Shown: one piece after another, positions 4,775 to 63,723 of the stretch
Numbering within the stretch: the first letter of the stretch is position 1
How the letters are laid out: the number at the start of each line of letters is the position of its first letter
Source of the DNA: an uncultured Clostridia bacterium
GTDB lineage: Bacteria > Bacillota > Clostridia > UBA1381
Direction of reading: 5' to 3'
Assembly: GCA_947624485.1 (NCBI GenBank)
Contig: CANQKM010000011.1
Location: forward strand, 1 to 64,000
DNA: 64,000 bases
The notes under the pieces: model-generated
Told to the model about the DNA's origin: nothing
The model's database searches: none
The model's input: only the letters and a program-made list of their open reading frames with translations
Position numbers and translations under genes: made by a program

Positions 4775-5020
4775 TTATTTACATCCATGCTTTTTCGCGT
4801 TTTTCTTAAGCGGCGTCGGCTCGTCGGTCAGTCCCGCTATATAGTCAATCGTGACGTTATACAGCTTTGCCAGACGTATTACGAGACAGAACGGTATCTC
4901 GCGGTAACCCTGCTCGTAATTCGTGTAGGTCGTTTTGTGCATTTTAAGAATTTCAACAAGCTGCGACTGCGTCAAATCGCTGTCCTCACGCAAATCTCTG
5001 AGCCTCGGATAATGTGCCAT
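4775..5020 (-). CDS. XRE-family helix-turn-helix regulator
   Basis: MAHYPRLRDLREDSDLTQSQLVEILKMHKTTYTNYEQGYREIPFCLVIRLAKLYNVTIDYIAGLTDEP. Confidence 0.85.
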   Translation of the reverse strand: MAHYPRLRDLREDSDLTQSQLVEILKMHKTTYTNYEQGYREIPFCLVIRLAKLYNVTIDYIAGLTDEPTPLKKNAKKHGCK

Positions 5021-5052
5021 AATCTTTCCCTCCGTAAAAATTAAATTCCCTA

Positions 5053-5081
5053 TTGACATAATACATCATTTGTTGTATAAT
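5053..5081 (+). promoter_or_regulatory. Sigma-A-type promoter for the methyltransferase gene
   Basis: TTGACA-17 nt-TATAAT. Confidence 0.75.
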
Positions 5082-5089
5082 CATGCTAT

Positions 5090-5111
5090 AAATACAACAT
5101 ATGTTGTATTT
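5090..5111. promoter_or_regulatory. Perfect 22-bp palindrome, putative operator
   Basis: AAATACAACATATGTTGTATTT. Confidence 0.7.
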
Positions 5112-5124
5112 GAGGGAGGTCAAC

Positions 5125-5736
5125 ATGATAATAGGAAAAATGAAATTTTACAGAATATGGAAGGATAAGTATTCTTCGTTTTGGAAAAAGAGACGGTTCA
5201 ATAAAATAATGAGACTACTCAAACTGCCGGAAAAGGAACGGATAAAGGTACTTGAAGTGGGTTGCTCGAACGGCAGGGATTTCATACAATTTCTGCCGCG
5301 TGACAAATTTGAAATATGGGGCGCTGACATAGACGCGGACTGCGGCGCGGACGCGGACATACATTTTGTGACCGCCGACGCAGCCGACCTGCCGTTTGCC
5401 GACGGCGAATTTGATTTGGTTGTTTCAATCGGACTTTTGGAGCATATCGAACCCGTTGAAAAGCTGTGCCGCATCATACGCGAAATGGAGCGCGTCGGGA
5501 CGCATCAGCTATCCGTAGTTCCGTCCGTCGCGACGCTGCTTGAACCGCACAGCGGCAAGGTGCTTTTCCCGCTCCGAGTGTGGCGCGAAATGATGTCGGA
5601 GCAGCCGTCAACGCCGCTGCACCTAAACTTTTACACCGAACACACATGGACGAAATTCACGGGTTTCACCGGCTGCGAAATAAAGCGATTTTTCTACATA
5701 CCGCCGTTCATAACAAATACGGTGATATACAAATAA
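5125..5736 (+). CDS. Class I SAM-dependent methyltransferase
   Basis: VLEVGCSNGRDFIQFLP...ADAADLPFADGEFDLVVSIGLLEHIE; GAGGGAGG RBS before ATG 5125. Confidence 0.85.
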   Translation: MIIGKMKFYRIWKDKYSSFWKKRRFNKIMRLLKLPEKERIKVLEVGCSNGRDFIQFLPRDKFEIWGADIDADCGADADIHFVTADAADLPFADGEFDLVVSIGLLEHIEPVEKLCRIIREMERVGTHQLSVVPSVATLLEPHSGKVLFPLRVWREMMSEQPSTPLHLNFYTEHTWTKFTGFTGCEIKRFFYIPPFITNTVIYK

Positions 5737-5741
5737 ACAAC

Positions 5742-5766
5742 AAAAGCGGAGCGTTCCGCTTTTTTT
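5742..5766 (+). terminator. Rho-independent terminator
   Basis: AAAAGCGGAGCGTTCCGCTTTTTT. Confidence 0.8.
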
Positions 5767-5863
5767 ATGCAAAAATATTTCAAAAACAGGCTGACAAACA
5801 GTAAAATAAATGATATAATGGTAAAAACGACAATAAAAACGGCGGTGAACAAGGAGGAAACAC

Positions 5864-6577
5864 ATGAAAACACTTAACATCTACGAGGAATTAAAGCAAA
5901 ACGCGTACCCGGGACGCGGAATTGTTATCGGCAAGTCGGCTGACGGGAAGTCGGCGGTGACGGCGTATTTTATTATGGGACGCTCGGAAAACAGCCGCAA
6001 CCGCGTATTTGTCGAGGACGGCGACGGAATCCGTACGCAAGCGTTCGATCCGTCGAAAATGAAGGATCCGCACCTCATTATTTACGCTCCGGTGCGTGTT
6101 CTCGGCAACAAAACGATCGTTACGAACGGCGACCAGACCGACACGATTTACGAGCTTATGAACCAGCAAATGACGTTCGAGCAGTCTCTCCGCGGACGCG
6201 AGTTTGAGGACGACGCGCCCAACTACACGCCGAGAATTTCCGGCATAATCAAGGTTGACGACGGACGCTTCAATTACGCGATGTCGATTTTGAAGAGCGA
6301 GAACGGCAATCCCGAATCGTGTCTCAGGTACACATATTCGTACAAGAACCCGATAGGCGGCGAGGGCAGATTCATCCACACCTACATGGGCGACGGCAGC
6401 CCGCTCCCCTCGTTCGAGGGCGAGCCGAAAAAGGTCGCAATACCGAGCGATATCGACGAGTTCACAAACGGCCTGTGGGACGCGCTCAACGAGGATAATA
6501 AGGTGTCGCTGTTTGTGAGATTTATCAATCTCGAAACGGGTGACGTTCAATCAAGGATTGTGAATAAAAATCAGTAA
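5864..6577 (+). CDS. IMP cyclohydrolase, PurO-like
   Basis: NAYPGRGIVIGKSADGKSAVTAYFIMGRSENSRNRVF...APVRVLGNKTIVTNGDQTDTIY; adjacent to a stand-alone AICAR transformylase. Confidence 0.8.
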   Translation: MKTLNIYEELKQNAYPGRGIVIGKSADGKSAVTAYFIMGRSENSRNRVFVEDGDGIRTQAFDPSKMKDPHLIIYAPVRVLGNKTIVTNGDQTDTIYELMNQQMTFEQSLRGREFEDDAPNYTPRISGIIKVDDGRFNYAMSILKSENGNPESCLRYTYSYKNPIGGEGRFIHTYMGDGSPLPSFEGEPKKVAIPSDIDEFTNGLWDALNEDNKVSLFVRFINLETGDVQSRIVNKNQ

Positions 6578-6591
6578 AGGAGAATTCTGAT

Positions 6592-6789
6592 ATGCTCACG
6601 GTTTTATATGTGCTGACGGGATTATTCGTATTCTTCGGCTTGATCTTTTGGCTTTTGGGCAATTTGATCGCCATAGCAAGCGCGTTCGGCGCGGCGGCAT
6701 TTTGCGGTGTTATGATATTTTTGTATTTTATCGTAAAGTGCGCGGTAAAGGATGCGATAAAAGAATATAGTGAAAATAATAAGCAATGA
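6592..6789 (+). CDS. Small membrane protein
   Basis: 65 aa, mostly hydrophobic, RBS aggagaa; overlaps the next gene by 4 nt. Confidence 0.55.
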   Translation: MLTVLYVLTGLFVFFGLIFWLLGNLIAIASAFGAAAFCGVMIFLYFIVKCAVKDAIKEYSENNKQ

Positions 6790-6902
6790 CGGATTTACCG
6801 AAAAGAAAAAGGATACGATTGGAAGAATATGATTATTCCGACGCCGGCGCGTATTTTGTCACGATATGTACAAAGTACAGACAATGTATATTGAGTGACA
6901 TC

Positions 6903-6929
6903 GTAGGGGGCGGCGCCCTCGACGCCCCG
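6903..6929 (+). repeat. REP-like hairpin within the RAYT reading frame
   Basis: GTAG followed by GGGGCG...CGCCCC inverted repeat. Confidence 0.65.
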
Positions 6930-7073
6930 CGTGTCGAATTAACATCGTATGGTAAAATTGTGGATGATGAAATTCAAAAATCAATGCGTATTTATCAACA
7001 TATTCAAATTGATAAATATGTCATTATGCCAAACCATGTTCATATGATAATCAATATTTTATATAACCCAAAC

Positions 7074-7100
7074 GGGACGTCGAGGGCGCCGTCCCATACG
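7074..7100 (-). repeat. REP-like hairpin within the RAYT reading frame
   Basis: GGGACGTCGAGGGCGCCGTCCC, encodes GTSRAPS. Confidence 0.7.
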
Positions 7101-7112
7101 GATAGGATGATC

Positions 7113-7139
7113 GGGACGTCGAGGGCGCCGTCCCGTACG
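7113..7139 (-). repeat. REP-like hairpin within the RAYT reading frame
   Basis: Second copy of GGGACGTCGAGGGCGCCGTCCC, encodes GTSRAPS. Confidence 0.7.
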
Positions 7140-7343
7140 AATGAAACGATTCCCGCATTTGTTTCAATGTTAAAACGGTTTACCAATAAACAATGCGACG
7201 AAAAAATATGGCACAGGTCGTATTACGACCACGTCATCCGCACCCAACACGATTACGCGCAAATATGGCAATACGTTGACGAAAATCCGACCAAATGGGA
7301 ATCGGACGAATACTACGAACAATAAAAGAAAGGAACATATATC

Positions 7344-8516
7344 ATGAACGAATTACAATTAAAATACGGCTGCAATCCAAATCAAAAACCGTCGCGGGTA
7401 TTTATCGAGAACGGCGATTTGCCGTTTGAGGCGCTTTGCGGAAAGCCGGGGTACATCAACCTGCTCGACGCATTGAACGGCTGGCAGCTCGTCAAGGAAC
7501 TTAAAAAGGCTACGGGACTTCCGGCGGCGACGTCATTCAAGCACGTGTCACCTGCTGGCGCGGCGGTTGGTTTGCCGCTTTCGGACACGCTCAGAAAGAT
7601 TTATTTCGTTGACGGAGTGGAGCTTACTCCGCTCGCAAACGCGTACGCAAGAGCGCGCGGCGCGGACAGAATGTCGTCGTTCGGTGATTTTATAGCTCTT
7701 TCGGACGAGTGCGACAAGGCTACGGCGCTCTTAATTAAAAAAGAGGTTTCCGACGGCGTGATCGCGCCGGGTTACAGTGACGAGGCTCTTGAAATTTTGA
7801 AGTCCAAGAAAAACGGAAACTACAACATAATTAAAATCGATCCGAATTACGTCCCCGCGGAAATCGAGCGCAAGCAGATATTCGGCATTACGTTCGAGCA
7901 GGGCAGAAATGAGCTTGACATCAACGACGAGCTTTTGTCAAACGTCGTTACCGCAAACAAAACGCTCACGGGCGAAGCGAAGCGCGACTTAAAAATAGCC
8001 TTGATCACGCTCAAATACACGCAGTCGAACAGCGTTTGCTACGTCAAGGACGGTCAGGCGATCGGCATCGGCGCGGGACAGCAGTCGCGTATTCACTGCA
8101 CGCGTCTCGCGGGCAACAAAGCTGACATCTGGTGGCTCAGACAAGCTCCGCAGGTGCTCGCGCTCGAGTTTGTGGACGGAATAAAGCGCGCCGACCGCGA
8201 CAACGCGATCGATGTGTACATCTCCGACGAGCACGACGATGTTTTGGCGGACGGCGCATGGGAGAAGATATTTAAGGTAAAGCCGCCCGTATTCACGAAG
8301 GCGGAGCAGCGCGAGTGGCTTGACAAAAACACGGACGTAGCGCTCGGCTCAGACGCGTTCTTCCCGTTCGGCGACAACATCGAGCGCGCGAGAAAGAGCG
8401 GCGTTACGGTAATAGCGCAGCCCGGCGGCTCGATAAGGGACGATAATGTTATTGAGACGTGCAACAAATACAACATGGCAATGGCGTTCACGGGAATACG
8501 GTTATTTCATCACTAA
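7344..8516 (+). CDS. AICAR formyltransferase (stand-alone PurH transformylase domain)
   Basis: LKYGCNPNQKPSRVF...PAATSFKHVSPAGAAVG...KYTQSNSVCYVKDGQAIGIGAGQQSRIHCTRLAG. Confidence 0.9.
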   Translation: MNELQLKYGCNPNQKPSRVFIENGDLPFEALCGKPGYINLLDALNGWQLVKELKKATGLPAATSFKHVSPAGAAVGLPLSDTLRKIYFVDGVELTPLANAYARARGADRMSSFGDFIALSDECDKATALLIKKEVSDGVIAPGYSDEALEILKSKKNGNYNIIKIDPNYVPAEIERKQIFGITFEQGRNELDINDELLSNVVTANKTLTGEAKRDLKIALITLKYTQSNSVCYVKDGQAIGIGAGQQSRIHCTRLAGNKADIWWLRQAPQVLALEFVDGIKRADRDNAIDVYISDEHDDVLADGAWEKIFKVKPPVFTKAEQREWLDKNTDVALGSDAFFPFGDNIERARKSGVTVIAQPGGSIRDDNVIETCNKYNMAMAFTGIRLFHH

Positions 8517-8547
8517 TACGATAAGGTTTATACTTACGGCGTGCGTT

Positions 8548-8662
8548 AGCCTCCCTTGTTAAAGGGAGGGGGACCGCCGAAGGCGGTGGAGGGATTCATT
8601 ATTAAAACAGAAAAGGAATCCCCCAGTCGCGCTACGCGCGCCAGCCCCCTTTGACAAGGGGG
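8548..8662. repeat. Dispersed intergenic repeat, copy 2
   Basis: CTCCCTTGTTAAAGGGAGGGGGACCGCCGAAGGCGGTGGAGGG...CCCCCTTTGACAAGGGGG. Confidence 0.7.
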
Positions 8663-8733
8663 CCTTTCGTAGGGGCTGGCGCCTCGACAGCCCGCAATGC
8701 CCAACACAATGTTACGGGACTGAGGGGTTTTAA

Positions 8734-8759
8734 CGGGCGACCGCAAGGGTCGCCCCTAC
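8734..8759 (-). repeat. REP-like element (GTAG plus hairpin), minus orientation
   Basis: GGGCGACCGCAAGGGTCGCCCCTAC. Confidence 0.75.
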
Positions 8760-8784
8760 ACCTATATTGTATAAAGCGCGCACC

Positions 8785-8821
8785 GTAGGGGCGACCCTTG
8801 CGGTCGCCCGTCCACGATAAC
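8785..8821 (+). repeat. REP-like element (GTAG plus hairpin), plus orientation
   Basis: GTAGGGGCGACCCTTGCGGTCGCCCGTCCACGATAAC. Confidence 0.75.
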
Positions 8822-8823
8822 AT

Positions 8824-8836
8824 GGGGACACTAAAA
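8824..8836 (+). repeat. GGGACACTAAA motif copy
   Basis: GGGGACACTAAAA, intergenic, tandem copy 1 of 3. Confidence 0.95.
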
Positions 8837-8839
8837 CAT

Positions 8840-8852
8840 AGGGACACTAAAA
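8840..8852 (+). repeat. GGGACACTAAA motif copy
   Basis: AGGGACACTAAAA, intergenic, tandem copy 2 of 3. Confidence 0.95.
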
Positions 8853-8856
8853 TATT

Positions 8857-8869
8857 GGGGACACTAAAA
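8857..8869 (+). repeat. GGGACACTAAA motif copy
   Basis: GGGGACACTAAAA, intergenic, tandem copy 3 of 3. Confidence 0.95.
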
Positions 8870-8883
8870 CGGAGGAAAACATT

Positions 8884-10143
8884 ATGAAAATTTTAGTAGT
8901 AGGCGGCGGCGGACGCGAGCACGCTATTGTTTGGAAAATCGCGCAGTCGCCGAAAGTTGAGAAGATTTACTGCGCGCCCGGCAACGGCGGTATCGCGGAA
9001 TTGGCGGAGTGCGTGAACGTGGCGGCTACGGATATTGACGGCATGGTAGCGCTCGCGAAGGAAAAGGCGGTCGATCTCGTCATGGTCGCGCCGGACGACC
9101 CGCTTGCAATGGGCATGGTGGACGCGCTCGAAAAAGAGGGAATACGCGCGTTCGGACCCCGCGCAAACGCGGCGATCATCGAGGGCAGCAAGGCGTTCTC
9201 GAAGGAGCTTATGAAAAAGTACAATATCCCGACCGCCAAATACGAGGTATTCGACGACAGCGCGAAGGCTGTTGCGTACATAAAGGAGCAGGGCAAATTC
9301 CCTGCCGTTATTAAGGCGGACGGGCTCGCGCTCGGCAAGGGCGTTATAATCGCGCAGGATTTAGCCGAAGCCGAGCAAGCCGTGCATGAAATGATCGACG
9401 AGGGCAAGTTCGGCAAGAGCGGCAGCCGCGTCGTTATCGAGGAATTTCTGACAGGACCGGAAGTGTCGGTTCTCGCGTTTACCGACGGAAAAACGGTCAA
9501 GCCTATGGTATCGGCGCAGGATCACAAGCGCGCGTACGACAATGACAAGGGCTTGAATACCGGCGGCATGGGCACGTTCTCGCCGTCGCGGCTCTACGAC
9601 GAGGCGAAGCAGAAGGAGTGCATGGAAAATATTTTCCTGCCGACGATAAAGGCTATGACCGCTGAGGGCAGACCCTTTAAGGGTGTGCTCTATTTCGGAC
9701 TGATGATGACGGCTGACGGCGTGAAGGTGATCGAATACAACTGCCGCTTCGGCGATCCCGAAACGCAGGTCGTACTGCCGAGATTAAAGACGGATTTGGT
9801 TGACATAATGCAAGCCGTTATAGACGAAAAGCTCGACGAAATCGAAATCGAGTGGGAGGACAACGCCGCCGTATGCGTTGTTATGGCATCAGGCGGCTAT
9901 CCGGTGAGCTATAAAAAGGGCTACGAGATCACAGGTCTTGACAGCGTGGACGGCGTTACGGTGTTCCACGCGGGAACGGCTGTAAAGGACGGAAAAATCG
10001 TGACAAGCGGCGGACGCGTTCTGGGCGTTACCGCGCTCGGCGCGAATATCGATGAGGCGCGCGATAAGGCGTACGCGGCGGTCGATAAGATTTCGTTCAC
10101 GGATGAGTTCCATAGGAGCGATATTGGGATAAAGAAGTATTGA
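8884..10143 (+). CDS. purD: Phosphoribosylamine--glycine ligase
   Basis: MKILVVGGGGREHAIVWKIAQSPKVEKIYCAPGNGGIAELAECVN; ATP-grasp; NTGGMGTFSPS; YNCRFGDPETQVVLPRL. Confidence 0.97.
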   Translation: MKILVVGGGGREHAIVWKIAQSPKVEKIYCAPGNGGIAELAECVNVAATDIDGMVALAKEKAVDLVMVAPDDPLAMGMVDALEKEGIRAFGPRANAAIIEGSKAFSKELMKKYNIPTAKYEVFDDSAKAVAYIKEQGKFPAVIKADGLALGKGVIIAQDLAEAEQAVHEMIDEGKFGKSGSRVVIEEFLTGPEVSVLAFTDGKTVKPMVSAQDHKRAYDNDKGLNTGGMGTFSPSRLYDEAKQKECMENIFLPTIKAMTAEGRPFKGVLYFGLMMTADGVKVIEYNCRFGDPETQVVLPRLKTDLVDIMQAVIDEKLDEIEIEWEDNAAVCVVMASGGYPVSYKKGYEITGLDSVDGVTVFHAGTAVKDGKIVTSGGRVLGVTALGANIDEARDKAYAAVDKISFTDEFHRSDIGIKKY

Positions 10144-10168
10144 TGGGATAAATTCGAGGTGATATTTA

Positions 10169-10648
10169 ATGAAACGAACCGATTACATATCATGGGACGA
10201 ATATTTTATGGGCATCGCGCTTTTATCGGCGCAGCGGTCGAAGGACTCTAACACACAGGTCGGCTGCTGCATAGTGAACAGCGAGAATAAAATATTATCG
10301 CTCGGCTACAACGGCATGCCTACGGGCTGCGACGACGACCTCATGCCGTGGGAGCGCGACGGCGAGCCGCTCGACACAAAATACATGTACGTCTGCCACG
10401 CGGAGCTCAACGCGATATTGAACCGCAGCTCCGGCTCGCTCGCGGGCGCGACGCTGTACGTGACGCTGTTCCCGTGCAACGAGTGTGCGAAAGCCATTAT
10501 ACAGTCGGGCATACGTGAGGTTGTGTACGCGTGCGACAAGTACGACGGCGAGGACGACAACGTTGCGTCAAAGCGCATGTTCGACATGGTGGGCGTAAAG
10601 TACCGCAAATACGAGCCGACGGGACGGCGGCTCACGATAGAGCTGTAA
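10169..10648 (+). CDS. Deoxycytidylate/cytidine deaminase family protein
   Basis: CHAELNAILN...TLFPCNECAKAIIQSGIREVVY zinc-deaminase motifs. Confidence 0.9.
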   Translation: MKRTDYISWDEYFMGIALLSAQRSKDSNTQVGCCIVNSENKILSLGYNGMPTGCDDDLMPWERDGEPLDTKYMYVCHAELNAILNRSSGSLAGATLYVTLFPCNECAKAIIQSGIREVVYACDKYDGEDDNVASKRMFDMVGVKYRKYEPTGRRLTIEL

Positions 10649-23900: not shown

Positions 23901-24404
23901 ATGTCTGTGAATAAAATAACCTTTGTGATAAATTCGCGCAGTTACACGGTCGTCGCCGAGGAAACGCCGGAGTATCTCGAAAAGCTGTGTTCTCACGTGA
24001 ACGAGAAGGTGGAAAACGTGCTTCGCGGCGGGCAGAACATAATGGGCGAGCGTCCGCTTGTTCTTGCCGCGCTCAACATCTGCGACGAGTATTACAAGCA
24101 GCTTGAGGAAAACGACACGCTCAAAGGAAAAACGGCGGAGCTTAAAGAGAAAAACAGCAGGCTCGAACGTGAGGCGGAGAACGCGCAGGACGAGCTTGAC
24201 ATGGTAAAAAGCGGTCAGGTCTCGATCGACGAAGCCGCAATGCGCGCCGAGGTGAGCGACGCGAACGAAAAACTGAACGGCGCAAACAACAAGATTAAAT
24301 TCCTCGAGGGACAGGTAAAAAGCCTGAAGGAGAAAATCGTGAAGCTTGAAGAACGCGACAAAAAGCGCGAGCAGGACTTTCTCGATTTGATAGACAAGCA
24401 GTAA
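23901..24404 (+). CDS. zapA: Cell division protein ZapA
   Basis: NKITFVINSRSYTVVAEETPEYLEKLCSHVNEKVENVL; coiled-coil C-terminus. Confidence 0.85.
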   Translation: MSVNKITFVINSRSYTVVAEETPEYLEKLCSHVNEKVENVLRGGQNIMGERPLVLAALNICDEYYKQLEENDTLKGKTAELKEKNSRLEREAENAQDELDMVKSGQVSIDEAAMRAEVSDANEKLNGANNKIKFLEGQVKSLKEKIVKLEERDKKREQDFLDLIDKQ

Positions 24405-26341
24405 TGGCTATGGAACTACTTGCGCCGGCCGGAAATGAAACTGCTCTGCGCGCGGCGGTGCAGTCGGGCGCGGACGCGGTGTACCTCGGCGGTAAAAGCT
24501 TCGGCGCAAGACGTGCCGCGCAGAATTTCACCGCCGACGAAATCAAAAAACAGACCGAATACTGCCACCTGTACGGCGCCAAGGTGCATGTTACCGTCAA
24601 CACGCTCGTGAAGCAGCGCGAAATCGGAGAGCTTACGGAGTATGTAAAAAGCCTCAACGACGCTTGCGTTGACGCGCTTATCGTGCAGGATTTGGGCGCG
24701 GCGGAGATTATAAAAAATACCTGCCCCGACCTCACGCTTCACGCAAGCACGCAGATGTCGGTGACGACGGCGGACGAGGTAAAGGAGCTTGCGCGTCTCG
24801 GCTTTTCGCGCGTCGTGCTTGCGAGAGAGCTAAGCCGAGATGAGATAGAGAATATATGCCGCACGTCGCCTATTGAAATCGAGGTGTTCGTACACGGCGC
24901 GATATGCCAGTGCTACAGCGGCAAGTGCCTCATGTCGAGCATACTCGGCGGCAGAAGCGGCAACAGAGGCGCTTGCGCGCAGCCGTGCCGACTGCCGTAC
25001 GAGCTTTGCGGGGGACACAAAAGTATTAAAAACGGCTATCTGCTCTCACCGAAGGACATGGCTCTTATAGACGAACTAGGGACACTAAAACGTATGGGCA
25101 TTGCGTCGCTTAAAATTGAGGGACGGTTAAAACGCGCGGAATACGTGTCATCGGTTGTCGGTGTATACAGGAAGTATCTCGATCTGCTTGAAGTAAACGG
25201 GGACACTAAAGTTACAAAAGAGGACATGCAGATCCTCACCGACGCGTTTTCAAGGTCGGGCTTTACCAACGGCTACTTCAATAACAAGCTCGGCGCGGAC
25301 ATGATGAGCTACGCGTCTCCGTCGGGTACGGGGGACACTAAATATACGCGCGAAGCCGAGGAACGGTGTACCGAAAATGCGAATGTGCGCAAAATCGGTA
25401 TTGACATAACGGGGACACTAAAATTCAACTCGCCGCTCGAGGTTACATTTTCGGACGGCAGCAGAAACGTTCGGGCGGTGGGGACACTAAAATCCGAAAA
25501 ATCCGTAAATGTTCCGCTTGACATTGACAGGCTTAAGGCGCAGCTTTTAAAGCTCGGCTCGACTCCGTTTGCGTGTAACAGTATATCCGTCACGGTTGAC
25601 GATGGCGTAACGCTGCCGATTAAGGAGATAAACGCCGTGCGCCGCGCCGCCGCGGAAATGCTCGCGGACGAACGGGTAAGGCGTGAAAGGGGACGCGTGA
25701 CCGATTATGCTATACCGTCCTGCGAGCGCGAAATGCCCGATAAAATAGAGCTTGCCGCATACGTCACGACCGGCGAGCAGCGCCGCGCGGCGGAGCAAGC
25801 GGGCATACGCGCCGAGAGGTTCAGACCGTTTTCGGGGACACTAAACGTGTACAATTCGCTCACGGCGGATTACCTTGCAAAAGACGGCATTGTCACGCTG
25901 TCGCCCGAGCTTAACCTGCGTGAAATCGACGAGCTTTTACGGTACACGAACGCAAGGACAGAGGTAATCGCTTACGGCTCTCTGCCGCTGATGATAATGA
26001 AAAACTGCCCCGTAAACGCGCAGGGAAAATGTCAGAGCGGCAAACAGATATACAGCCTGCGCGACAGAAAAAAACGCGTAATGCCGATTATATGCGACGG
26101 CGAAAAAGGAAGGTGCAGAGCGGTTCTGTTAAATTCCGTGCCGGTTTACATGGCTGACAAGGCGGACGATATAAAAAGACTGAAAATAAATTGTGTGAGA
26201 TTGCTATTTACAGTTGAAAATTTCTCACAATGTGTTAAAATAATAGATGAGTACAAACGCGCGTTTGAAGAAGGCGGCAAAGTAAACGCGCCGCCCGGCA
26301 ACACCTTTACGAGAGGTCACTTTTACCGCGGCGTTGAATAA
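24404..26341 (+). CDS. U32 family peptidase/collagenase-like protein
   Basis: MELLAPAGNETALRAAVQSGADAVYLGGKSFGARR...EIEVFVHGAICQCYSGKCLMSSILGGRSGNRGACAQPCRLPYEL. Confidence 0.95.
   Translation: MAMELLAPAGNETALRAAVQSGADAVYLGGKSFGARRAAQNFTADEIKKQTEYCHLYGAKVHVTVNTLVKQREIGELTEYVKSLNDACVDALIVQDLGAAEIIKNTCPDLTLHASTQMSVTTADEVKELARLGFSRVVLARELSRDEIENICRTSPIEIEVFVHGAICQCYSGKCLMSSILGGRSGNRGACAQPCRLPYELCGGHKSIKNGYLLSPKDMALIDELGTLKRMGIASLKIEGRLKRAEYVSSVVGVYRKYLDLLEVNGDTKVTKEDMQILTDAFSRSGFTNGYFNNKLGADMMSYASPSGTGDTKYTREAEERCTENANVRKIGIDITGTLKFNSPLEVTFSDGSRNVRAVGTLKSEKSVNVPLDIDRLKAQLLKLGSTPFACNSISVTVDDGVTLPIKEINAVRRAAAEMLADERVRRERGRVTDYAIPSCEREMPDKIELAAYVTTGEQRRAAEQAGIRAERFRPFSGTLNVYNSLTADYLAKDGIVTLSPELNLREIDELLRYTNARTEVIAYGSLPLMIMKNCPVNAQGKCQSGKQIYSLRDRKKRVMPIICDGEKGRCRAVLLNSVPVYMADKADDIKRLKINCVRLLFTVENFSQCVKIIDEYKRAFEEGGKVNAPPGNTFTRGHFYRGVE
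25078..25090 (+). repeat. GGGACACTAAA motif copy
   Basis: AGGGACACTAAAA in the U32 gene, frame GTLK. Confidence 0.95.
25199..25210 (+). repeat. GGGACACTAAA motif copy
   Basis: GGGGACACTAAA in the U32 gene, frame GDTK. Confidence 0.95.
25331..25342 (+). repeat. GGGACACTAAA motif copy
   Basis: GGGGACACTAAA in the U32 gene, frame GDTK. Confidence 0.95.
25411..25423 (+). repeat. GGGACACTAAA motif copy
   Basis: GGGGACACTAAAA in the U32 gene, frame GTLK. Confidence 0.95.
25480..25492 (+). repeat. GGGACACTAAA motif copy
   Basis: GGGGACACTAAAA in the U32 gene, frame GTLK. Confidence 0.95.
25834..25845 (+). repeat. GGGACACTAAA motif copy
   Basis: GGGGACACTAAA in the U32 gene, frame GTLN. Confidence 0.95.
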
Positions 26342-55933: not shown

Positions 55934-57001
55934 ATGAAAAGCGGCAGATTTTTGAGAACGGGCTTTACCACCGGAAGCTGCGCCGCGGCTGCCGCAAAGG
56001 CGGCTGTGAGCGCGCTCATGACGGGCGAAATACGTAAAAGCGTAAGCATACCGCTCCCGTCGGGCGGCAGAGCCGAAATAGAAATAACGGACGTGAAAAT
56101 TACGGAGAATACCGCGTCCGCGTCGGTAATAAAGCGCAGCGGCGACGATCCCGACGTTACGGACGGCATAACGATCTGCGCGTCGGTCAGAAAAACGGCG
56201 CGCGGCGTGACGGTTGACGGCGGCGAGGGTATAGGCAGAGTGACGCGCAATGGGCTTGACCGACCGGTAGGCGAAGCCGCGATTAACAGCGTGCCGCGCC
56301 GAATGATACGCGAAGCGGCGCTTGAGGCTTTGGGCGAATACGACGGCGGTGTCGAGATTATCATTTCCGCGCCGCAGGGAAGGGAAATCGCGAAAAAGAC
56401 CTTCAATCCGCGTCTCGGCATAGAGGGCGGCATTTCGATTCTCGGCACGAGCGGCATAGTCGAGCCGATGAGCGAGAAAGGGCTTCTCGACACGGTTTTT
56501 CTGGAGCTTAAAATGCGCCGCGCCGAGGGACACAAAACGGCTGTGCTTGTCCCGGGAAATTACGGCGAGGAATTTGCGGCGCGCGAAATGCACATAAAAA
56601 ACGCCGTTCAATGCTCGAATTACATCGGCGACGCGCTTGACTACGCGCAGGATCTCGGATTTAAGAGCGTCCTGATTATCGCGCACATGGGCAAGCTCGT
56701 CAAGCTCGGCAGCGGCATTATGAACACACATTCGCGCTGCGCCGACGGTCGAATGGAAACTCTCGCCTTGTGCGCCGCACTCGCGGGGTATGAGGATTTT
56801 GCGAAAATACTCGGCTGCGCGACGACGGATGAGGCGTACGAGTACATAAGGGACACTAAAACTATAGATATTTTAATGAGCAGAATAGACATGTATTTGA
56901 AACGCCGCACGGAGCTAAAGGCGGGAGCGGTGATGTTCTCGAACAGGTACGGCGTGATAGGCAAAACAAAGGATGCGGACGAAATAATAAAGGAGATATA
57001 A
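55934..57001 (+). CDS. cbiD: Cobalt-precorrin-5B C1-methyltransferase
   Basis: LRTGFTTGSCAAAAAKAAVSALMTGE...PVGEAAINSVPRRMIREA...GTSGIVEPMSEKGLLDTV. Confidence 0.96.
   Translation: MKSGRFLRTGFTTGSCAAAAAKAAVSALMTGEIRKSVSIPLPSGGRAEIEITDVKITENTASASVIKRSGDDPDVTDGITICASVRKTARGVTVDGGEGIGRVTRNGLDRPVGEAAINSVPRRMIREAALEALGEYDGGVEIIISAPQGREIAKKTFNPRLGIEGGISILGTSGIVEPMSEKGLLDTVFLELKMRRAEGHKTAVLVPGNYGEEFAAREMHIKNAVQCSNYIGDALDYAQDLGFKSVLIIAHMGKLVKLGSGIMNTHSRCADGRMETLALCAALAGYEDFAKILGCATTDEAYEYIRDTKTIDILMSRIDMYLKRRTELKAGAVMFSNRYGVIGKTKDADEIIKEI
56849..56861 (+). repeat. GGGACACTAAA motif copy
   Basis: AGGGACACTAAAA in cbiD, frame RDTK. Confidence 0.95.
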
Positions 57002-57754
57002 ATGGTACATTTTGTGGGAGCGGGCAGCGGCGCGCCCGACCTTATAACGCTGCGCGGCAAGCGGCTTCTGGAGGAAGCGGACATAATAATATACGCCGGC
57101 TCGCTCGTGAACGCCGCGCTTCTCGAATACGCGAATGGGGACACTAAAATATACGACAGCTCGCGCATGACGCTCGGCGAGGTCGTGGACGTGATGCGCC
57201 AAGGGGACACTAAAAATATAGTGCGGCTCCACACCGGCGACACCTCGATATACGGCGCGGTAAGGGAGCAGATGGACGCGCTTGAAAAAATGGGCATAGA
57301 GTACGACGTATGCCCCGGCGTGTCGTCCTTCTGCGGCGCGGCTGCGGCGTTAAGAGCGGAGTACACGCTTCCCGGAGTGTCGCAGACGGTGATAATAACG
57401 CGCGCGGAGGGCAGAACGCCCGTGCCGGAACGTGAAACGATACGCTCACTCGCGCATCACGGCGCGACAATGATAATTTTCCTGTCGGCAAACATGACGG
57501 AAAAGCTCCAGCAAGAGCTTACCGCCGGCGGCTATCCGCCCGACACGCCCGCCGCGATTGTGTACAAGGCGACGTGGGAGGACGAGAAGGTTATGCGCTG
57601 CACAGTGGGGACACTAAACGCAACGGCGAAATCGAACGGAATAACAAAAACGGCTCTAATAACGGTCGGCAATTTTTTGGGTGATGATTACGAGTTATCG
57701 AAGCTGTACGACGAGACCTTCCAAACCTCTTACAGAAAGGGCGTGGAGAAATGA
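57002..57754 (+). CDS. cobM: Precorrin-4 / cobalt-precorrin-4 C11-methyltransferase
   Basis: VHFVGAGSGAPDLITLRGKRLLEEADIIIYAGSLVN...VRLHTGDTSIYGAVREQMDALEKMGIEYDVCPGVSSF. Confidence 0.96.
   Translation: MVHFVGAGSGAPDLITLRGKRLLEEADIIIYAGSLVNAALLEYANGDTKIYDSSRMTLGEVVDVMRQGDTKNIVRLHTGDTSIYGAVREQMDALEKMGIEYDVCPGVSSFCGAAAALRAEYTLPGVSQTVIITRAEGRTPVPERETIRSLAHHGATMIIFLSANMTEKLQQELTAGGYPPDTPAAIVYKATWEDEKVMRCTVGTLNATAKSNGITKTALITVGNFLGDDYELSKLYDETFQTSYRKGVEK
57137..57149 (+). repeat. GGGACACTAAA motif copy
   Basis: GGGGACACTAAAA in cobM, frame GDTK. Confidence 0.95.
57203..57215 (+). repeat. GGGACACTAAA motif copy
   Basis: GGGGACACTAAAA in cobM, frame GDTK. Confidence 0.95.
57607..57618 (+). repeat. 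GGGACACTAAA motif copy
   Basis: GGGGACACTAAA in cobM, frame GTLN. Confidence 0.95.
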
Positions 57755-58755
57755 AAATTGCCGCGATAGCTTTTACGGAGCGCGGCGGCAATGTCGCGAA
57801 GCTCCTGAAAGACAAAATGAACGCCGACGGCTTTATTATACACACACACCCAACGGACGGACTTACAACGTTCACGAGCCTTGACGAGGTGACGCGTCTC
57901 GCGTGGGACGGGTACGACGCGCTTGTGTTCGTCGGAGCGTGCGGAATAGCCGTGCGCGCCATAGCGCCGTACATAAGGAACAAGGCGGAGGACAGAGCCG
58001 TCGTCGCGGCGGACGAGACGGGACGATACGCCGTTTCGCTGCTTTCGGGACACATCGGCGGCGCAAACGCGCTTGCAAGAGACGTTGCGCGTATCACGGG
58101 CGGCGAAGCCGTAATAACGACAGCCACCGATGTAAACGGCAAATTCGCCGTTGACACATTTGCGGTCTTAAACAATCTGCACATCGGGGACACTAAAATC
58201 ATAAAAGAAATATCGTCGCGCGTGCTTCACGGAGAGCCGATCGGACTTGTGTGCGACGCCAAAGCGAAAAACATTCCCGACATTTTTACCGACAGCGCCG
58301 ATGTGGGAATCTGCATAAGCGCGGAGGAGAAAAAGCCGTTTGACATAACGCTTAACCTCTACCCGAAAACGACCGTGATAGGTATCGGCTGCCGCCGCGG
58401 CGCGGAAAATATAGAAAAGAGTGCGCTTGAATTTTTGAGGCAGAACAATATAAGCGCACACTCTCTTTGCGCCGCCGCAACGGTTGACATTAAAAAGGAC
58501 GAGCGCGGCATAAACGAATTCTGCGAAAAATACGGCATTGAGCTTTTGACGTTCACGGCGGCGGAGCTTGGGGACACTAAAGGCAGCTTTACCGCGTCGG
58601 ATTTTGTGAAGAAAACGGTCGGCGTGGACAATGTGTGCGAGCGTGCCGTATGCGCCGCGGGCGCGGAGCTTACGCATAAAAAGACCGCGGCGGACGGCGT
58701 GACGTTCGCGCTGGGGACACTAAAATACACGGTTGATTTCGGAAGGGGACACTAA
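57751..58755 (+). CDS. cbiG: Cobalt-precorrin 5A hydrolase CbiG
   Basis: ALVFVGACGIAVRAIAPYIRNKAEDRAVVAADETGRYAVSLLSGHIGGANALARDVARITGGEAVITTATD. Confidence 0.95.
   Translation: MKIAAIAFTERGGNVAKLLKDKMNADGFIIHTHPTDGLTTFTSLDEVTRLAWDGYDALVFVGACGIAVRAIAPYIRNKAEDRAVVAADETGRYAVSLLSGHIGGANALARDVARITGGEAVITTATDVNGKFAVDTFAVLNNLHIGDTKIIKEISSRVLHGEPIGLVCDAKAKNIPDIFTDSADVGICISAEEKKPFDITLNLYPKTTVIGIGCRRGAENIEKSALEFLRQNNISAHSLCAAATVDIKKDERGINEFCEKYGIELLTFTAAELGDTKGSFTASDFVKKTVGVDNVCERAVCAAGAELTHKKTAADGVTFALGTLKYTVDFGRGH
58186..58198 (+). repeat. GGGACACTAAA motif copy
   Basis: GGGGACACTAAAA in cbiG, frame GDTK. Confidence 0.95.
58570..58581 (+). repeat. GGGACACTAAA motif copy
   Basis: GGGGACACTAAA in cbiG, frame GDTK. 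Confidence 0.95.
58713..58725 (+). repeat. GGGACACTAAA motif copy
   Basis: GGGGACACTAAAA in cbiG, frame GTLK. Confidence 0.95.
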
Positions 58756-58756
58756 A
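58745..58756 (+). repeat. GGGACACTAAA motif copy forming the cbiG stop codon
   Basis: GGGGACACTAAATG: TAA is the cbiG stop and the last A begins the cobJ ATG. Confidence 0.95.
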
Positions 58757-59478
58757 TGGAGATATACGTTGTGGGAACGGGCGCGGGCAGCGAGGACGGA
58801 CTGACGCGCGGGGCAAGGAAAACGCTTGAAGGTGCGGATTTGATCGTCGGCTACACCGTTTACACCGACCTCGTGAAGTCCTTTCTTCCGCAAAAGGAAT
58901 GTTATTCGACAGGTATGCGCGGCGAAAAGGAGCGGTGTATTTACGCAATAAACGCGGCGCGTGAGGGCAAAAGGGTATGCGTCGTGTGCGGCGGCGACGC
59001 GGGCGTGTACGGCATGACGTCGCTGCTTTACGAGCTTACGGCTGACGACGCGGATATAGAGATACGCGCCGTTGCCGGAGTGAGCGCGATGCTGTCGGGC
59101 GCGGCTCTTGTCGGCGCGCCGCTCGGTCATGACTTTGCTGTGATAAGCCTGAGCGACCTTTTAACGCCGTGGGAGACTATTGAAAAACGGCTTGTCTGCG
59201 CCGCTGAGGGCGATTTTGTGATTTGTCTTTACAACCCGTCCTCGAAAAACCGCGCGGACTACCTGCGCCAAGCGTGCAGCATTATAATGAAATACAGGGA
59301 CACTAAAACCGTCTGCGCCGCCGCGAGGAACATCGGCAGAGACGGCGAGGAATACGCCGTTATGACGCTCGGCGAAATGGCGGACTACAAGGCGGACATG
59401 TTCACGACCGTTTTTATCGGCAGCACGAAAACGCGCGAAATCAAGGGCAGAATGGTAACGCCGAGGGGCTATAAGTGA
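58756..59478 (+). CDS. cobJ: Precorrin-3B C17-methyltransferase family
   Basis: MEIYVVGTGAGSEDGLTRGARKTLEGADLIVGYTVYTDLVK...VCGGDAGVYGMTSLLYEL...GHDFAVISLSDLLTPWETIEKRL. Confidence 0.95.
   Translation: MEIYVVGTGAGSEDGLTRGARKTLEGADLIVGYTVYTDLVKSFLPQKECYSTGMRGEKERCIYAINAAREGKRVCVVCGGDAGVYGMTSLLYELTADDADIEIRAVAGVSAMLSGAALVGAPLGHDFAVISLSDLLTPWETIEKRLVCAAEGDFVICLYNPSSKNRADYLRQACSIIMKYRDTKTVCAAARNIGRDGEEYAVMTLGEMADYKADMFTTVFIGSTKTREIKGRMVTPRGYK
59296..59308 (+). repeat. GGGACACTAAA motif copy
   Basis: AGGGACACTAAAA in cobJ, frame RDTK. Confidence 0.95.
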
Positions 59479-59496
59479 CGCGGAGGGAGAAGTAAT

Positions 59497-60222
59497 ATGT
59501 GCAATGTGATTCTGTTCGGCGGCACGAGCGAGGGACGCATTTTAGCCGAATTTCTGCGTGACAGTAACATAAAACATATCGTGTGCGTCGCGACCGAGTA
59601 CGGCGCGGAGCTTTTGAAGGACTGCCGCGTCCGCGTCGGCAGAATGGACGAGCGTGAAATGGCTGATTTTTTCGCAGAAACGAAGCCGAAAATCGTCGTT
59701 GACGCGACGCATCCTTACGCAGACAAGGTGACGGAAAACATAAAAAAAGCGTGTACGTGCCGATATTTGCGCGTGACGCGCGGGGAAACGGACATGAGCT
59801 TGGGCGTAACGGTCGGCAGCGCGCGCGAGGCGGCGGAGTACCTGTCAAAAACGAGCGGAGAAATACTTATCACCACCGGTTCAAAGGAAATATCGGAGTT
59901 TTCCGCGCTTGCCGCAAGAGCATATGCGCGCGTACTGCCGTCGGACGAGTCGGTCAAAGCGTGCATACGCGCCGGATTTTCGCAGGAGCGGATAATAAGC
60001 GCCGCGCCGCCGTTTACGGAGAAGGAAAACATCGCGGTAATACGCGGAAAAAACATAAAATACCTCGTGACCAAAAGCAGCGGAGCAAGCGGCGGATTTG
60101 ACGCGAAAACCGCAGCCGCGCGGAAAACGGGCGCGGAATGTGTGATAATACGCCGTCCGACGCGAGAGAGCGGATTTTCGGTCGGGGAAGCGAAGAAAAA
60201 AATAACGGAGCTGATAAAATGA
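59497..60222 (+). CDS. cobK: Precorrin-6A / cobalt-precorrin-6A reductase
   Basis: VILFGGTSEGRILAEFL...VVDATHPYADKVTENIKKAC...LITTGSKEISEFSAL; no motif copies in this gene. Confidence 0.93.
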   Translation: MCNVILFGGTSEGRILAEFLRDSNIKHIVCVATEYGAELLKDCRVRVGRMDEREMADFFAETKPKIVVDATHPYADKVTENIKKACTCRYLRVTRGETDMSLGVTVGSAREAAEYLSKTSGEILITTGSKEISEFSALAARAYARVLPSDESVKACIRAGFSQERIISAAPPFTEKENIAVIRGKNIKYLVTKSSGASGGFDAKTAAARKTGAECVIIRRPTRESGFSVGEAKKKITELIK

Positions 60223-61379
60223 ATGTGTGCATAATCGGCGCGGGCATGGGCAGTGCGGAATATCTCACCCCTGCCGCGCGGAAAAAAATCGAAAACGCGG
60301 ATATTATAATCGGCACTAAGCGCGTAACAGAGCCTTATTCGCGCGGAAAAAAGACGTACTTCGAGTACGGAGCCGACAAAATAATGCGGATAATAGACGG
60401 CGCGGGCGATAAAAATATCGCGGTGCTTTTTTCGGGCGACGCGTCGTTTTTCAGCGGCGCGGCGCGCCTTGCAGCGATTTGCCCCGACGCGGAGATCGAG
60501 CCGGGAATAAGCAGCGCGTCGTATTTCTGCGCCAAAATCGGCGTGAGCATGGACGATATGAACGTTGTGAGCCTGCATGGGCGCAAATGCAACATAGTGA
60601 GCGAGGTGCGCCGAAATAAAAAGACGTTCGCGCTGCTTGGCGAAAATCCGTGCGGCAGACTGTGCGAATACGGTCTCGGCGGCGCGCGCGTATACATAGG
60701 CGAAAACCTCTCATACGAAAACGAAAAAATATATTCCGGCGCGGCGGCGGAGTTTAAAAACGCTGTACTGCCGCCGCTGTCGGTAATCGTGATAATAAAC
60801 AAAAACGCGTCGCCGCGCGTCAGGAGCGGCATAAATGACGGCGAATTTATAGCGGGCAATGTGCCGATGACGAAATCGGCTGTGCGTGCCGTGACGGCTG
60901 CAAGGCTCGAAACCGAACCCGACAGCGTTGTGTACGACATCGGCGCGGGCACCGGTACGGTCAGCGTTGAAGCCGCTCTCGCCGCGTATAAGGGAACGGT
61001 GTACGCGATCGAGAAAAATCACGAGGCGGCGGAGCTTATACGCGCGAACGCGGTAAAATTCATGTGCGACAACATCGTTGTCATAGAGGGCAGCGCGCCC
61101 GACGCTTTGGACGGTTTACCGAAGCCCGACAGGGTGTTTATAGGCGGCTCGTCGGGGACACTAAAACAGACTATTGAAAAATGCGGCTGCGAAAAAATTG
61201 TCGTAAACGCCGTGACGATCGAGACGCTCACGGGGACACTAAAAGCATTTGACGAACTCGGCTATGAATACGATATTGAGCAGATAAACGCGTCGTATGC
61301 GCGGAAAATCGGCGGATACAACATGCTCACGGCGCACAACGGCGTGTTTGTGATAAGCGGAAGGAGGAAGGCGGAGTGA
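60219..61379 (+). CDS. cobL: Fused CbiE/CbiT (CobL-type) precorrin-6Y methyltransferase/decarboxylase
   Basis: VCIIGAGMGSAEYLTPAARKKIENADIIIGTKRV...VYDIGAGTGTVSVEAALAAYKGTVYAIEKNHEAAELI; 4-nt overlap with cobK. Confidence 0.94.
   Translation: MNVCIIGAGMGSAEYLTPAARKKIENADIIIGTKRVTEPYSRGKKTYFEYGADKIMRIIDGAGDKNIAVLFSGDASFFSGAARLAAICPDAEIEPGISSASYFCAKIGVSMDDMNVVSLHGRKCNIVSEVRRNKKTFALLGENPCGRLCEYGLGGARVYIGENLSYENEKIYSGAAAEFKNAVLPPLSVIVIINKNASPRVRSGINDGEFIAGNVPMTKSAVRAVTAARLETEPDSVVYDIGAGTGTVSVEAALAAYKGTVYAIEKNHEAAELIRANAVKFMCDNIVVIEGSAPDALDGLPKPDRVFIGGSSGTLKQTIEKCGCEKIVVNAVTIETLTGTLKAFDELGYEYDIEQINASYARKIGGYNMLTAHNGVFVISGRRKAE
61154..61166 (+). repeat. GGGACACTAAA motif copy
   Basis: GGGGACACTAAAA in cobL, frame GTLK. 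Confidence 0.95.
61232..61244 (+). repeat. GGGACACTAAA motif copy
   Basis: GGGGACACTAAAA in cobL, frame GTLK. Confidence 0.95.
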
Positions 61380-62701
61380 AGCGCGTAATGTTCGCCGGAG
61401 AGCGCAGCGGCTGCGGAAAAACGACCGTCACCTGCGCGTTTATGCAGGCTGTGACGGAGCGCGGTCACAGAATTTCCGCCTTCAAATGCGGCCCGGACTA
61501 CATTGATCCGATGTTCCACAAAACGGTACTCGGCGCAGACTCGTACAACCTCGATAGCTTTCTGATGAGCGGCGACGCGATAAATTATCTGCTCGCGAAA
61601 AACAGCGGCGATATTAACGTGATCGAGGGCGTTATGGGCTTTTACGACGGCATGGGCTTTACCGGTAAGGGCAGTTCGCACGAGCTTTCCGAAATAACCG
61701 ACACGCCCGTAATCCTCGTTGTTGACTGCGGCGGCAGAAGCCTGTCGGCGGCTGCGGCGGTCAAGGGATTTAAGGAGTTTAAGGAAAACAAAATTGCGGG
61801 CGTTGTTTTCAACAACCTGAAGGACAGCCTTTACGCGGATATGGCTCGCGGGTGCCGCGAGGTCGGCATTGAGCCGCTCGGATATATGCCGCGCGTAAGG
61901 GGCGCGGAGATAGAGAGCAGGCATCTCGGACTTGTGACGGCTGCCGAAATCGGGGACATAAAAAATAAAATCCGCATACTCGGAGAGCAGGCGGAAAAGA
62001 CGATTGACATAGACCGCATACTTGAAATCGCGGAACGCGGGGACACTAAAACTGATTTTTCGCCGCCCCAAAAAACCGCGGACGTTAAAATAGCGGTCGC
62101 GCGCGACAAGGCGTTTTGCTTTTACTACGCCGATAATCTGGATTTGCTCAAATCTCTCGGCGCGCGTCTTTTGTTTTTCAGTCCGCTCGAAAACGAGAGC
62201 GTACCCGACTGCGACGGCATAATCATAGGCGGCGGCTACCCCGAGCTTTACGCGGACGTTCTCGCGAAAAATACGGGGACACTAAAATCACTGCGCGCAA
62301 AAATTTTCGGTGGCGCGCCGTGCATAGCGGAGTGCGGAGGGTTTATGTACCTGCACGAAAGCATAACTGTCGGCGGCGAAAAGCACGGCATGGTCGGCGT
62401 AATAAAAGGAACATGCCGCAAAACAGACCGCCTGCAGCGGTTCGGGTACATGGAAATGACGGCGCGGCGCGACAACATTCTCTGCAAAAGGGGACACAAA
62501 ATCCGTTCGCGCGAGTTCCACTATTTTGACAGCACAAACCCCGGAAACGGCTTCACCGCTCAAAAAAACGGCAGGTCGTGGGAGTGCGTGCATACCGACG
62601 GAAACCTTTTTGCGGGCTTTCCGCACCTGCACTTTTACTCGGACGTGACGCTCGCCGAAAATTTTATAAAAAGCTGTGAGGAATACAAATGCAAAAGATA
62701 A
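61376..62701 (+). CDS. cbiA: Cobyrinate a,c-diamide synthase
   Basis: GTG start; VMFAGERSGCGKTTVTCAFMQAVTERGHRISAFKCGPDYIDPMFHKTVLG...IAECGGFMYLHE. Confidence 0.95.
   Translation: MKRVMFAGERSGCGKTTVTCAFMQAVTERGHRISAFKCGPDYIDPMFHKTVLGADSYNLDSFLMSGDAINYLLAKNSGDINVIEGVMGFYDGMGFTGKGSSHELSEITDTPVILVVDCGGRSLSAAAAVKGFKEFKENKIAGVVFNNLKDSLYADMARGCREVGIEPLGYMPRVRGAEIESRHLGLVTAAEIGDIKNKIRILGEQAEKTIDIDRILEIAERGDTKTDFSPPQKTADVKIAVARDKAFCFYYADNLDLLKSLGARLLFFSPLENESVPDCDGIIIGGGYPELYADVLAKNTGTLKSLRAKIFGGAPCIAECGGFMYLHESITVGGEKHGMVGVIKGTCRKTDRLQRFGYMEMTARRDNILCKRGHKIRSREFHYFDSTNPGNGFTAQKNGRSWECVHTDGNLFAGFPHLHFYSDVTLAENFIKSCEEYKCKR
62039..62051 (+). repeat. GGGACACTAAA motif copy
   Basis: GGGGACACTAAAA in cbiA, frame GDTK. 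Confidence 0.95.
62275..62287 (+). repeat. GGGACACTAAA motif copy
   Basis: GGGGACACTAAAA in cbiA, frame GTLK. Confidence 0.95.
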
Positions 62702-63723
62702 AGGAAATCGACAGATCCGTTTACGACGCGGCGCGCGCGCGGTGGAAAAGCATCGCGAAGCCCTTGGGAAGCCTCGGCGCGTTCGAGGAAACCGTGTCTC
62801 GCATAGCCGCCGCGCAGGGGACACTAAAACCCGACATATCGAAGCGGCGCGTACTCGTCATGTGCGCCGACAACGGCGTTACGAGCGAGGGCGTGACGCA
62901 GACAGATTCGTCCGTCACATCACTCGTCGCGGAAAATATAACGCGCGAAATGGCGTGCGTAAGCCTTGCCGCGCGTACGGCGCACGCGGACGTTACAGCC
63001 GTTGACGTAGGTATGGCGCGTGACGCGGCGGGGACACTAAAACGAAAAATAAGATACGGTACGGGCAATATTTTAAGAGAACGCGCCATGACGCGCGCGG
63101 AAGCGGAAAAAGCCGTACAGCTCGGTATCGACCTTGCCGCGGAGAGCGCGGATGAAGGGTATAAAATACTCGTCGCCGGCGAAATGGGCATAGGCAACAC
63201 CACCACAAGCGCAGCCGCTGCGTGCGTACTGCTCGGAAAAACGCCCGAAACCGCCGCCGGACGCGGCGCGGGACTGTCGGACGAGGGACTTAAACGGAAG
63301 ATAGAAGTTATAGAAAAATCCATACGGTTGCATAATCCCGACAAAAATGATATAATAGACGTGATTTCAAAGGTCGGCGGACTTGACATAGCCGCCATGA
63401 CGGGCGTTTTCATAGGCGGCGCGGCGCGCGGTCTGCCCGTCGTAACAGACGGCTTCATATCGTCGGTCGCGGCGCTCTGCGCGAAACGGCTCTGCCCCGG
63501 CTGCGGCGGTTACATTATAGCGTCGCATGTGTCAAATGAGGGCTGCGCAAAGGAAATACTCGACGCGCTCGGTCTCGCCGCTCCGATACGCGCCGTAATG
63601 TTCCCCGGCGAGGGTACGGGCGGCGTGATGCTTCTGCCGCTTCTGGACGCGGCGATAGAAATATTCAACGAAATGCCGACTTTTGAGGATATAAATTTAG
63701 AGAGGTACAGGGAGTACAAATAA
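62689..63723 (+). CDS. cobT: Nicotinate-nucleotide--dimethylbenzimidazole phosphoribosyltransferase
   Basis: ARWKSIAKPLGSLGAFEETVSRIAAAQ...VLVMCADNGVTSEGVTQTDSSVT...GEMGIGNTTTSAAAACVLLG. Confidence 0.96.
   Translation: MQKIKEIDRSVYDAARARWKSIAKPLGSLGAFEETVSRIAAAQGTLKPDISKRRVLVMCADNGVTSEGVTQTDSSVTSLVAENITREMACVSLAARTAHADVTAVDVGMARDAAGTLKRKIRYGTGNILRERAMTRAEAEKAVQLGIDLAAESADEGYKILVAGEMGIGNTTTSAAAACVLLGKTPETAAGRGAGLSDEGLKRKIEVIEKSIRLHNPDKNDIIDVISKVGGLDIAAMTGVFIGGAARGLPVVTDGFISSVAALCAKRLCPGCGGYIIASHVSNEGCAKEILDALGLAAPIRAVMFPGEGTGGVMLLPLLDAAIEIFNEMPTFEDINLERYREYK
62817..62829 (+). repeat. GGGACACTAAA motif copy
   Basis: GGGGACACTAAAA in cobT, frame GTLK. Confidence 0.95.
63030..63042 (+). repeat. 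GGGACACTAAA motif copy
   Basis: GGGGACACTAAAA in cobT, frame GTLK. Confidence 0.95.

Follow-up and report, generated by a model that had tools for sequence, protein, structure and literature searches.

Three tandem copies of a short DNA word stand immediately in front of purD in an uncultured member of the Clostridia, raising the question of whether they serve that gene or belong to something wider. The stretch analysed here, referred to as the window, is 64,000 nucleotides long. Within it, the copies occupy positions 8824-8835 (GGGGACACTAAA), 8840-8851 (AGGGACACTAAA, the G1A variant) and 8857-8868 (GGGGACACTAAA), all on the forward strand and with a period of 16-17. The third copy lies directly upstream of GGAGG and the ATG, and ends 15 nt before purD (8884-10143, forward strand), the gene for phosphoribosylamine-glycine ligase (NCBIfam TIGR00877, 561.7 bits against a cut-off of 288). 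Between the array and the PurH-like gene upstream of it lie REP-like inverted repeats (8521-8820; the GTAGGGGCGACCCTTGCGGTCGCCC repeats at 8540-8815), which close with the tail ...CGTCCACGATAACAT; on the other side, CGGAGGAAAACATT leads into the purD ATG. A preliminary description of this DNA had recorded three tandem copies of this period, following a REP-like element and close to GGAGG, and the sequence agrees. It was also right to place the last repeat letter at 8870, although 13 nt, and not the 14 it gave, then remain before the ATG.

The array varies in copy number among relatives, a variation that the same description had proposed to look for. There are three copies in the host genome (G000), three each in G011 and G010, two in G008, one intact and two decayed copies in G015, and none in G005, G001 or G018. 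The first copy is present in G011 and G008, reads AGGGACACTAAA in G010 and is absent from G005, G001 and G018; the second is the one missing in G008. Across these relatives the spacers drift and the words stay. The array is confined to close relatives of the host genome and to one genome that acquired this pur block, and G001 and G018 encode nearly the same purD protein with zero word copies in the leader. The REP-like repeats are independent of the word, as G005 lacks the array yet has a tail of this kind; their own number before purD varies among close relatives. A search of the window against Rfam matched no known RNA family, and the purD leader has no strong hairpin fold, unlike the inverted word pairs described below. 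A leader or regulator specific to purD was considered and rejected, as the copies are absent in relatives that have the same GGAGG and start. On these comparisons, a purD-specific regulatory role for the array is unlikely, and the array is probably incidental to purD expression.

What, then, is the word? Its 12-letter form is GGGGACACTAAA and its 11-base core GGGACACTAAA. The core occurs 167 times in the host genome (109 forward and 58 reverse), where the reversed-word control occurs zero times, and 151 copies of the full word are exact. Inside the window, GGGACACTAAAA with up to two mismatches gives 29 matches against 4.4 expected. In the 1.097 Mb of the host genome that was read, exact 12-mers number 119 and one-mismatch words only 24; ten of the latter are G1A, the commonest tolerated variant, and five are T9A. 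The flanks show weak preferences, with Y before the word and RY usual after it. Such overrepresentation of a short exact word on both strands is typical of the neisserial DUS and the pasteurellacean USS. In number and spread the word differs from them: its 151 exact copies are strongly clustered, and not spread genome-wide in hundreds to thousands. About half of all copies are intragenic. Between genes, the 1.1 Mb of the host genome that was read contains no fewer than 15 groups with two or more copies on the same strand. The purD array had been called the only intergenic tandem occurrence, which is true inside the window and does not hold for the genome.

The window has 27 word sites, all on the forward strand: the cobalamin operon accounts for 17 of them, a U32-family gene for seven and the purD leader for the remaining three. 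The U32-family gene (24404-26341) carries six exact copies and one variant over 25011-25845, starting at 25011, 25078, 25199, 25331, 25411, 25480 and 25834. The first of these is a T9A variant read as GHK, and sites in this gene are otherwise read as GTLK, GDTK or GTLN; the six exact sites are exact also in G011, G010, G005 and G008. The cobalamin operon (55934-63723) carries 15 exact or G1A copies and two variants. These lie in cbiD (56526-56860; 56526, a T9A variant, and 56849), cbiF (57137-57618; 57137, 57203 and 57607), cbiG (58186-58756; 58186, 58570, 58713 and 58745), cbiH (59296-59307), the cbiE/cbiT gene (61154-61243; 61154 and 61232), cobB (62039-62501; 62039, which has one G-to-T change in G011, 62275, and 62490, a T9A variant) and cobT (62817-63041; 62817 and 63030). 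In the frame where CACTAA would bring a stop, sites in the window either carry T9A (CACAAA) or use the TAA of the word as a real stop. The copy at 58745 (58745-58758, GGGGACACTAAATG) is of the second kind, providing the TAA stop of cbiG and overlapping the ATG of cbiH. Junction copies like this one were also seen in G003 and G018.

In the host genome, 30 of the 33 GDTK tetrapeptides found in a proteome sample of 308,873 aa are encoded by the word. An alpha-L-rhamnosidase gene (L205:7477-7568) holds four copies within about 90 nt, forming a GDTK-rich insert, and a relative (L063) has an insert one unit shorter, in frame.

The copies inside genes are conserved at the level of DNA. Four-fold degenerate sites of the U32 and cob genes were compared inside the word and elsewhere in the same genes. 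Differences were found at 1 of 59 sites inside words against 251 of 1379 outside in G011, 0 of 57 against 240 of 1353 in G010, 0 of 19 against 84 of 255 in G008, and 0 of 19 against 83 of 262 in G005. The outside rate is thus 18-33%, and Fisher p values for the four relatives range from 4e-5 to 1e-3. Deeper pairs, at about 60% protein identity, behave alike (0 of 12 against 98 of 184 for G003/G014; 0 of 9 against 105 of 163 for G000/G014), and for G018 and G001, the pairs furthest apart, silent-site freezing did not reach significance. These results bear on the suggestion that the purD array is ordinary REP-like intergenic debris of no significance. Many arrays do exist elsewhere, as the preliminary description had foreseen for such debris, and the purD array does follow REP-like repeats. 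Debris is nevertheless the wrong word for sequences that different species keep unaltered within enzyme genes, in two frames and at silent positions, and we regard this explanation as very improbable. It is refuted for the word overall, though where the purD array sits may still be explained in this way.

The copies are also maintained irrespective of strand. G014 and G003, with about 71% identical DNA, agree exactly at all three antisense copies in the haem operon, as do G018 and G033 at both antisense copies in two cob genes. That antisense copies are kept as exactly as sense copies argues that upkeep acts on double-stranded DNA and not on mRNA. Conservation at orthologous positions beyond coding constraint, seen here at four-fold sites and in antisense copies, is a further trait of DUS and USS. 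Yet orientation is far from random: by codon-trained gene calls, and so approximately, intragenic copies are 58 sense and 4 antisense. If tolerance of the encoded peptides were the only cause, a ratio of perhaps 3 to 1 in favour of sense would be expected, judging by non-word occurrences of the same peptides. Intergenic copies mostly fall within 60 nt of a stop codon and are nearly always sense to the nearest gene. A sense motif acting in mRNA, read by an RNA-binding protein or antisense RNA and with purD among the genes it regulates, would fit the sense excess in genes and the sense copies that mostly sit right after stops. We nonetheless think it improbable, since antisense copies should have decayed if the sense transcript alone mattered, the targets share no functional theme, and the motif is missing before purD in G005, G001 and G018. 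Moreover, DUS and USS also favour one orientation in reading frames (PMC2346458).

Between convergent genes the copies point inward, and the central pair forms an inverted repeat. Among the closest pairs in this inward (+-) arrangement, 12 of 14 have a 2-nt centre, and outward (-+) pairs are almost absent. The +- pairs often sit within AAAACG...CGTTTT tails, mostly between convergent genes, and their hairpins are strong folds (z-scores of -4.1 to -6.0). From their sequence they look like bidirectional terminators, and inverted pairs of this kind between convergent genes, as predicted terminators, are again shared with DUS and USS. Same-strand copies within 10 nt number 25 against 14 +- pairs.

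In this genus, the word is found in genes for cobalamin, haem and trp, in the U32 gene, in hydrogenase maturation genes (hypDE, hydF), in the rhamnosidase gene and in others. In G064, from another genus of the family, the targets are apparent mutL, mfd, rsmI and tsaE, judged on N-terminal sequences only. The lack of a common function argues against a regulon and for historical local spread. A B12 regulon element was rejected, as the word is also in U32, trp, rhamnosidase, hypDE and hydF, and the G064 targets are unrelated; a cobalamin riboswitch is present, separate from the word. The word could instead be the site of a dedicated DNA-binding protein (a silencer, or one that structures the nucleoid or takes part in repair), with several exact sites per cluster held by selection for binding and no transfer involved. 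That would accord with several copies per target gene and clustering by operon (the cobalamin operon has 17 sites here and 15 in G018), with strand-independent upkeep, with the half-site-like RY flanks and with the 12+2+12 palindrome in the hairpins. Such sites are normally degenerate, however, and this word is not; spacing is not fixed, and the targets of this genus and those of G064 have no theme. We consider a binding site rather unlikely.

How copies arise can be read from sites where relatives differ. At one CbiG site, the word is present in the clade of the host genome and in G004, and all other relatives have unrelated codons with the length unchanged; the replacement is a block of 12 bases (GAAAATGTCGAG in G003 against GGGGACACTAAA). 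At other U32 sites, arrival of the word came with a gain of 9 nt or a loss of 36 nt, and arrays differ by whole units between close relatives. One might speculate that the word is a short selfish sequence that rewrites itself through templated writing, from a short DNA or RNA template or by template switching, and has no function for its host. Block replacement of 12 bases with the flanks untouched, few intermediates, whole-unit changes in arrays and local clustering would all be expected of it. No template or enzyme was found, however, and the flanks of REP-type transposase genes do not carry the word; further, orthologous sites that are kept genus-wide without flank copying need a continuing force. 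On balance, this explanation is unlikely. In three members of the genus with low core counts (27 in G002, 31 in G009 and 41 in G013), words at ancestral sites have decayed, as though these species had lost a trans-acting factor. No different word dialect was seen in the stretches read of G002 or G013. Other repeated words are overrepresented in G002 (L298-L309), namely AGCTTGGTAAC, CCCCATGTCCA, TGGGGTTATAA and CCAGACTGTTC.

The purD array had also been proposed as a source or ancestral array, an idea that does not survive comparison: several gene-internal copies are common to species about 60% identical in that protein. Since gene-internal copies are shared by distant species and the purD array only by near relatives, the array is younger than those copies and not their ancestor. 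More broadly, the core is found in all 15 other genomes of the genus, at 27 to 165 copies; in the same family it is present in some genera and absent from others, and from the three remaining families of the order it is essentially missing. Three-copy arrays in the genome collection come only from 'uncultured Clostridia' MAGs from rabbit ('Lapin') samples. A phage or viral origin was rejected, as viral contigs held no array or full hairpin. Literature searches on the word strings and related topics returned nothing relevant to the word.

The surrounding pur block has a history of its own. The block (4800-10646 of the window) is 91-96% identical at the DNA level in G015 (C19, L326-L327), and the next 20 kb of that contig are mostly 72-77% identical. 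As it is far closer than genes on the same contig, the block has moved between species. In G018 (C6, L328-L329) only purH-purD match, in unrelated surroundings and with zero word copies, and in G001 (C108, L330) the block is likewise without a copy. To judge from these identities, exchange of the pur block has taken place both between species and between genera. It entered G018 without the word, so the word was not required for that transfer.

Uptake-type words are known from two proteobacterial groups, where they are tied to type IV pili. In the five richest genomes (G000, G005, G008, G010 and G011) and in G064, no T2SSE/PilB/ComGA-type ATPase (PF00437) exceeded the cut-off; the same profile matched all 14 of 14 control genomes. 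The five are drafts, 85-91% complete, and it is unlikely that the ATPase is missing from all of them by chance. ComEC is present.

We tentatively propose, with a probability of about 0.42, that a DNA word specific to this family, recognised on the double strand, works like DUS and USS, and that the purD array is one local tandem cluster of it. A sequence-specific step would favour DNA that carries the exact word; favoured copies would be gained by block replacement and purged of mismatches. Loop codons would accommodate the word in either frame that works, and at the ends of genes inverted pairs of it would have been recruited to make terminator-like hairpins. We infer that the favouring step may be uptake or exchange of DNA between cells. 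Judged by its sequence, the word behaves like an uptake word and is not classed as one, because its copies are few and clustered and a pilus-type ATPase is lacking. A more novel possibility, about which we are somewhat more doubtful, is a self-spreading word in a family of non-piliated Clostridia. Some process of templating or exchange would write exact 12-mers into genes in one step, and policing would then act on the DNA itself, giving a DUS-like signature without known uptake machinery. If uptake is involved, rabbit-gut Clostridia whose richest genomes are without a pilus motor would be a new kind of cell in which DNA is exchanged sequence-selectively. If it is not, such words can persist through something other than uptake. 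Either way, block gain and exactness inside enzymes make the writing and policing of words accessible by comparison of many strains.

Several known systems resemble the word in part. REP/RAYT palindromes are likewise repeated, intergenic and hairpin-forming, and a Y1_Tnp gene is present in the host genome; the unit here is 12 bp, however, half of the copies are intragenic, and RAYT loci lack the word. Mobility of the REP/RAYT type was rejected, as GGGACAC was absent within the 12 Y1_Tnp loci examined. Chi-type recombination words, as generally known, are also exact, short, placed in coding DNA and read in double strands, whereas the Clostridia word is longer, clustered, hairpin-paired and oriented with the gene, and no finding here ties it to AddAB/RecBCD. 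Rickettsia palindromic elements are insertions that measure roughly 100 bp or more. They too place repeat units in frame inside genes, but the 12 bases of the Clostridia word mostly replace existing codons.

The closest likeness is to the uptake words themselves, with several differences. The word falls far short of Neisseria in number, at about 150 copies against about 1,900 (1,892 exact and 815 one-mismatch DUS 10-mers in N. meningitidis Z2491; PMC2397512). Its copies cluster in few genes, although selection for uptake should spread them, and same-strand tandem copies are common, whereas in Neisseria such copies within 10 nt are rare (PMC1852404). The richest genomes lack a pilus-type ATPase above the cut-off. 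All of these points argue against uptake, as do the sense excess of 58 to 4, which exceeds the expectation from peptide tolerance, and the movement of the pur block into G018 and G001 without the word. The pasteurellacean USS (AAGTGCGGT) differs further in being another word; there is no long AT-rich extended motif here, and flanking preferences are weak. Nevertheless, DUS and USS are stringently conserved and originate from unrelated sequence (PMC2397512), and they form +- hairpins with A and T tails in tail-to-tail regions (PMC1852404). Like the neisserial DUS (ATGCCGTCTGAA), the Clostridia word is short and exact, stricter at orthologous positions than its surroundings, of block origin, inversely paired between genes lying tail to tail and biased in orientation within genes; with the USS it shares the same behaviours, including A/T-tailed +- hairpins and the orientation bias in reading frames.
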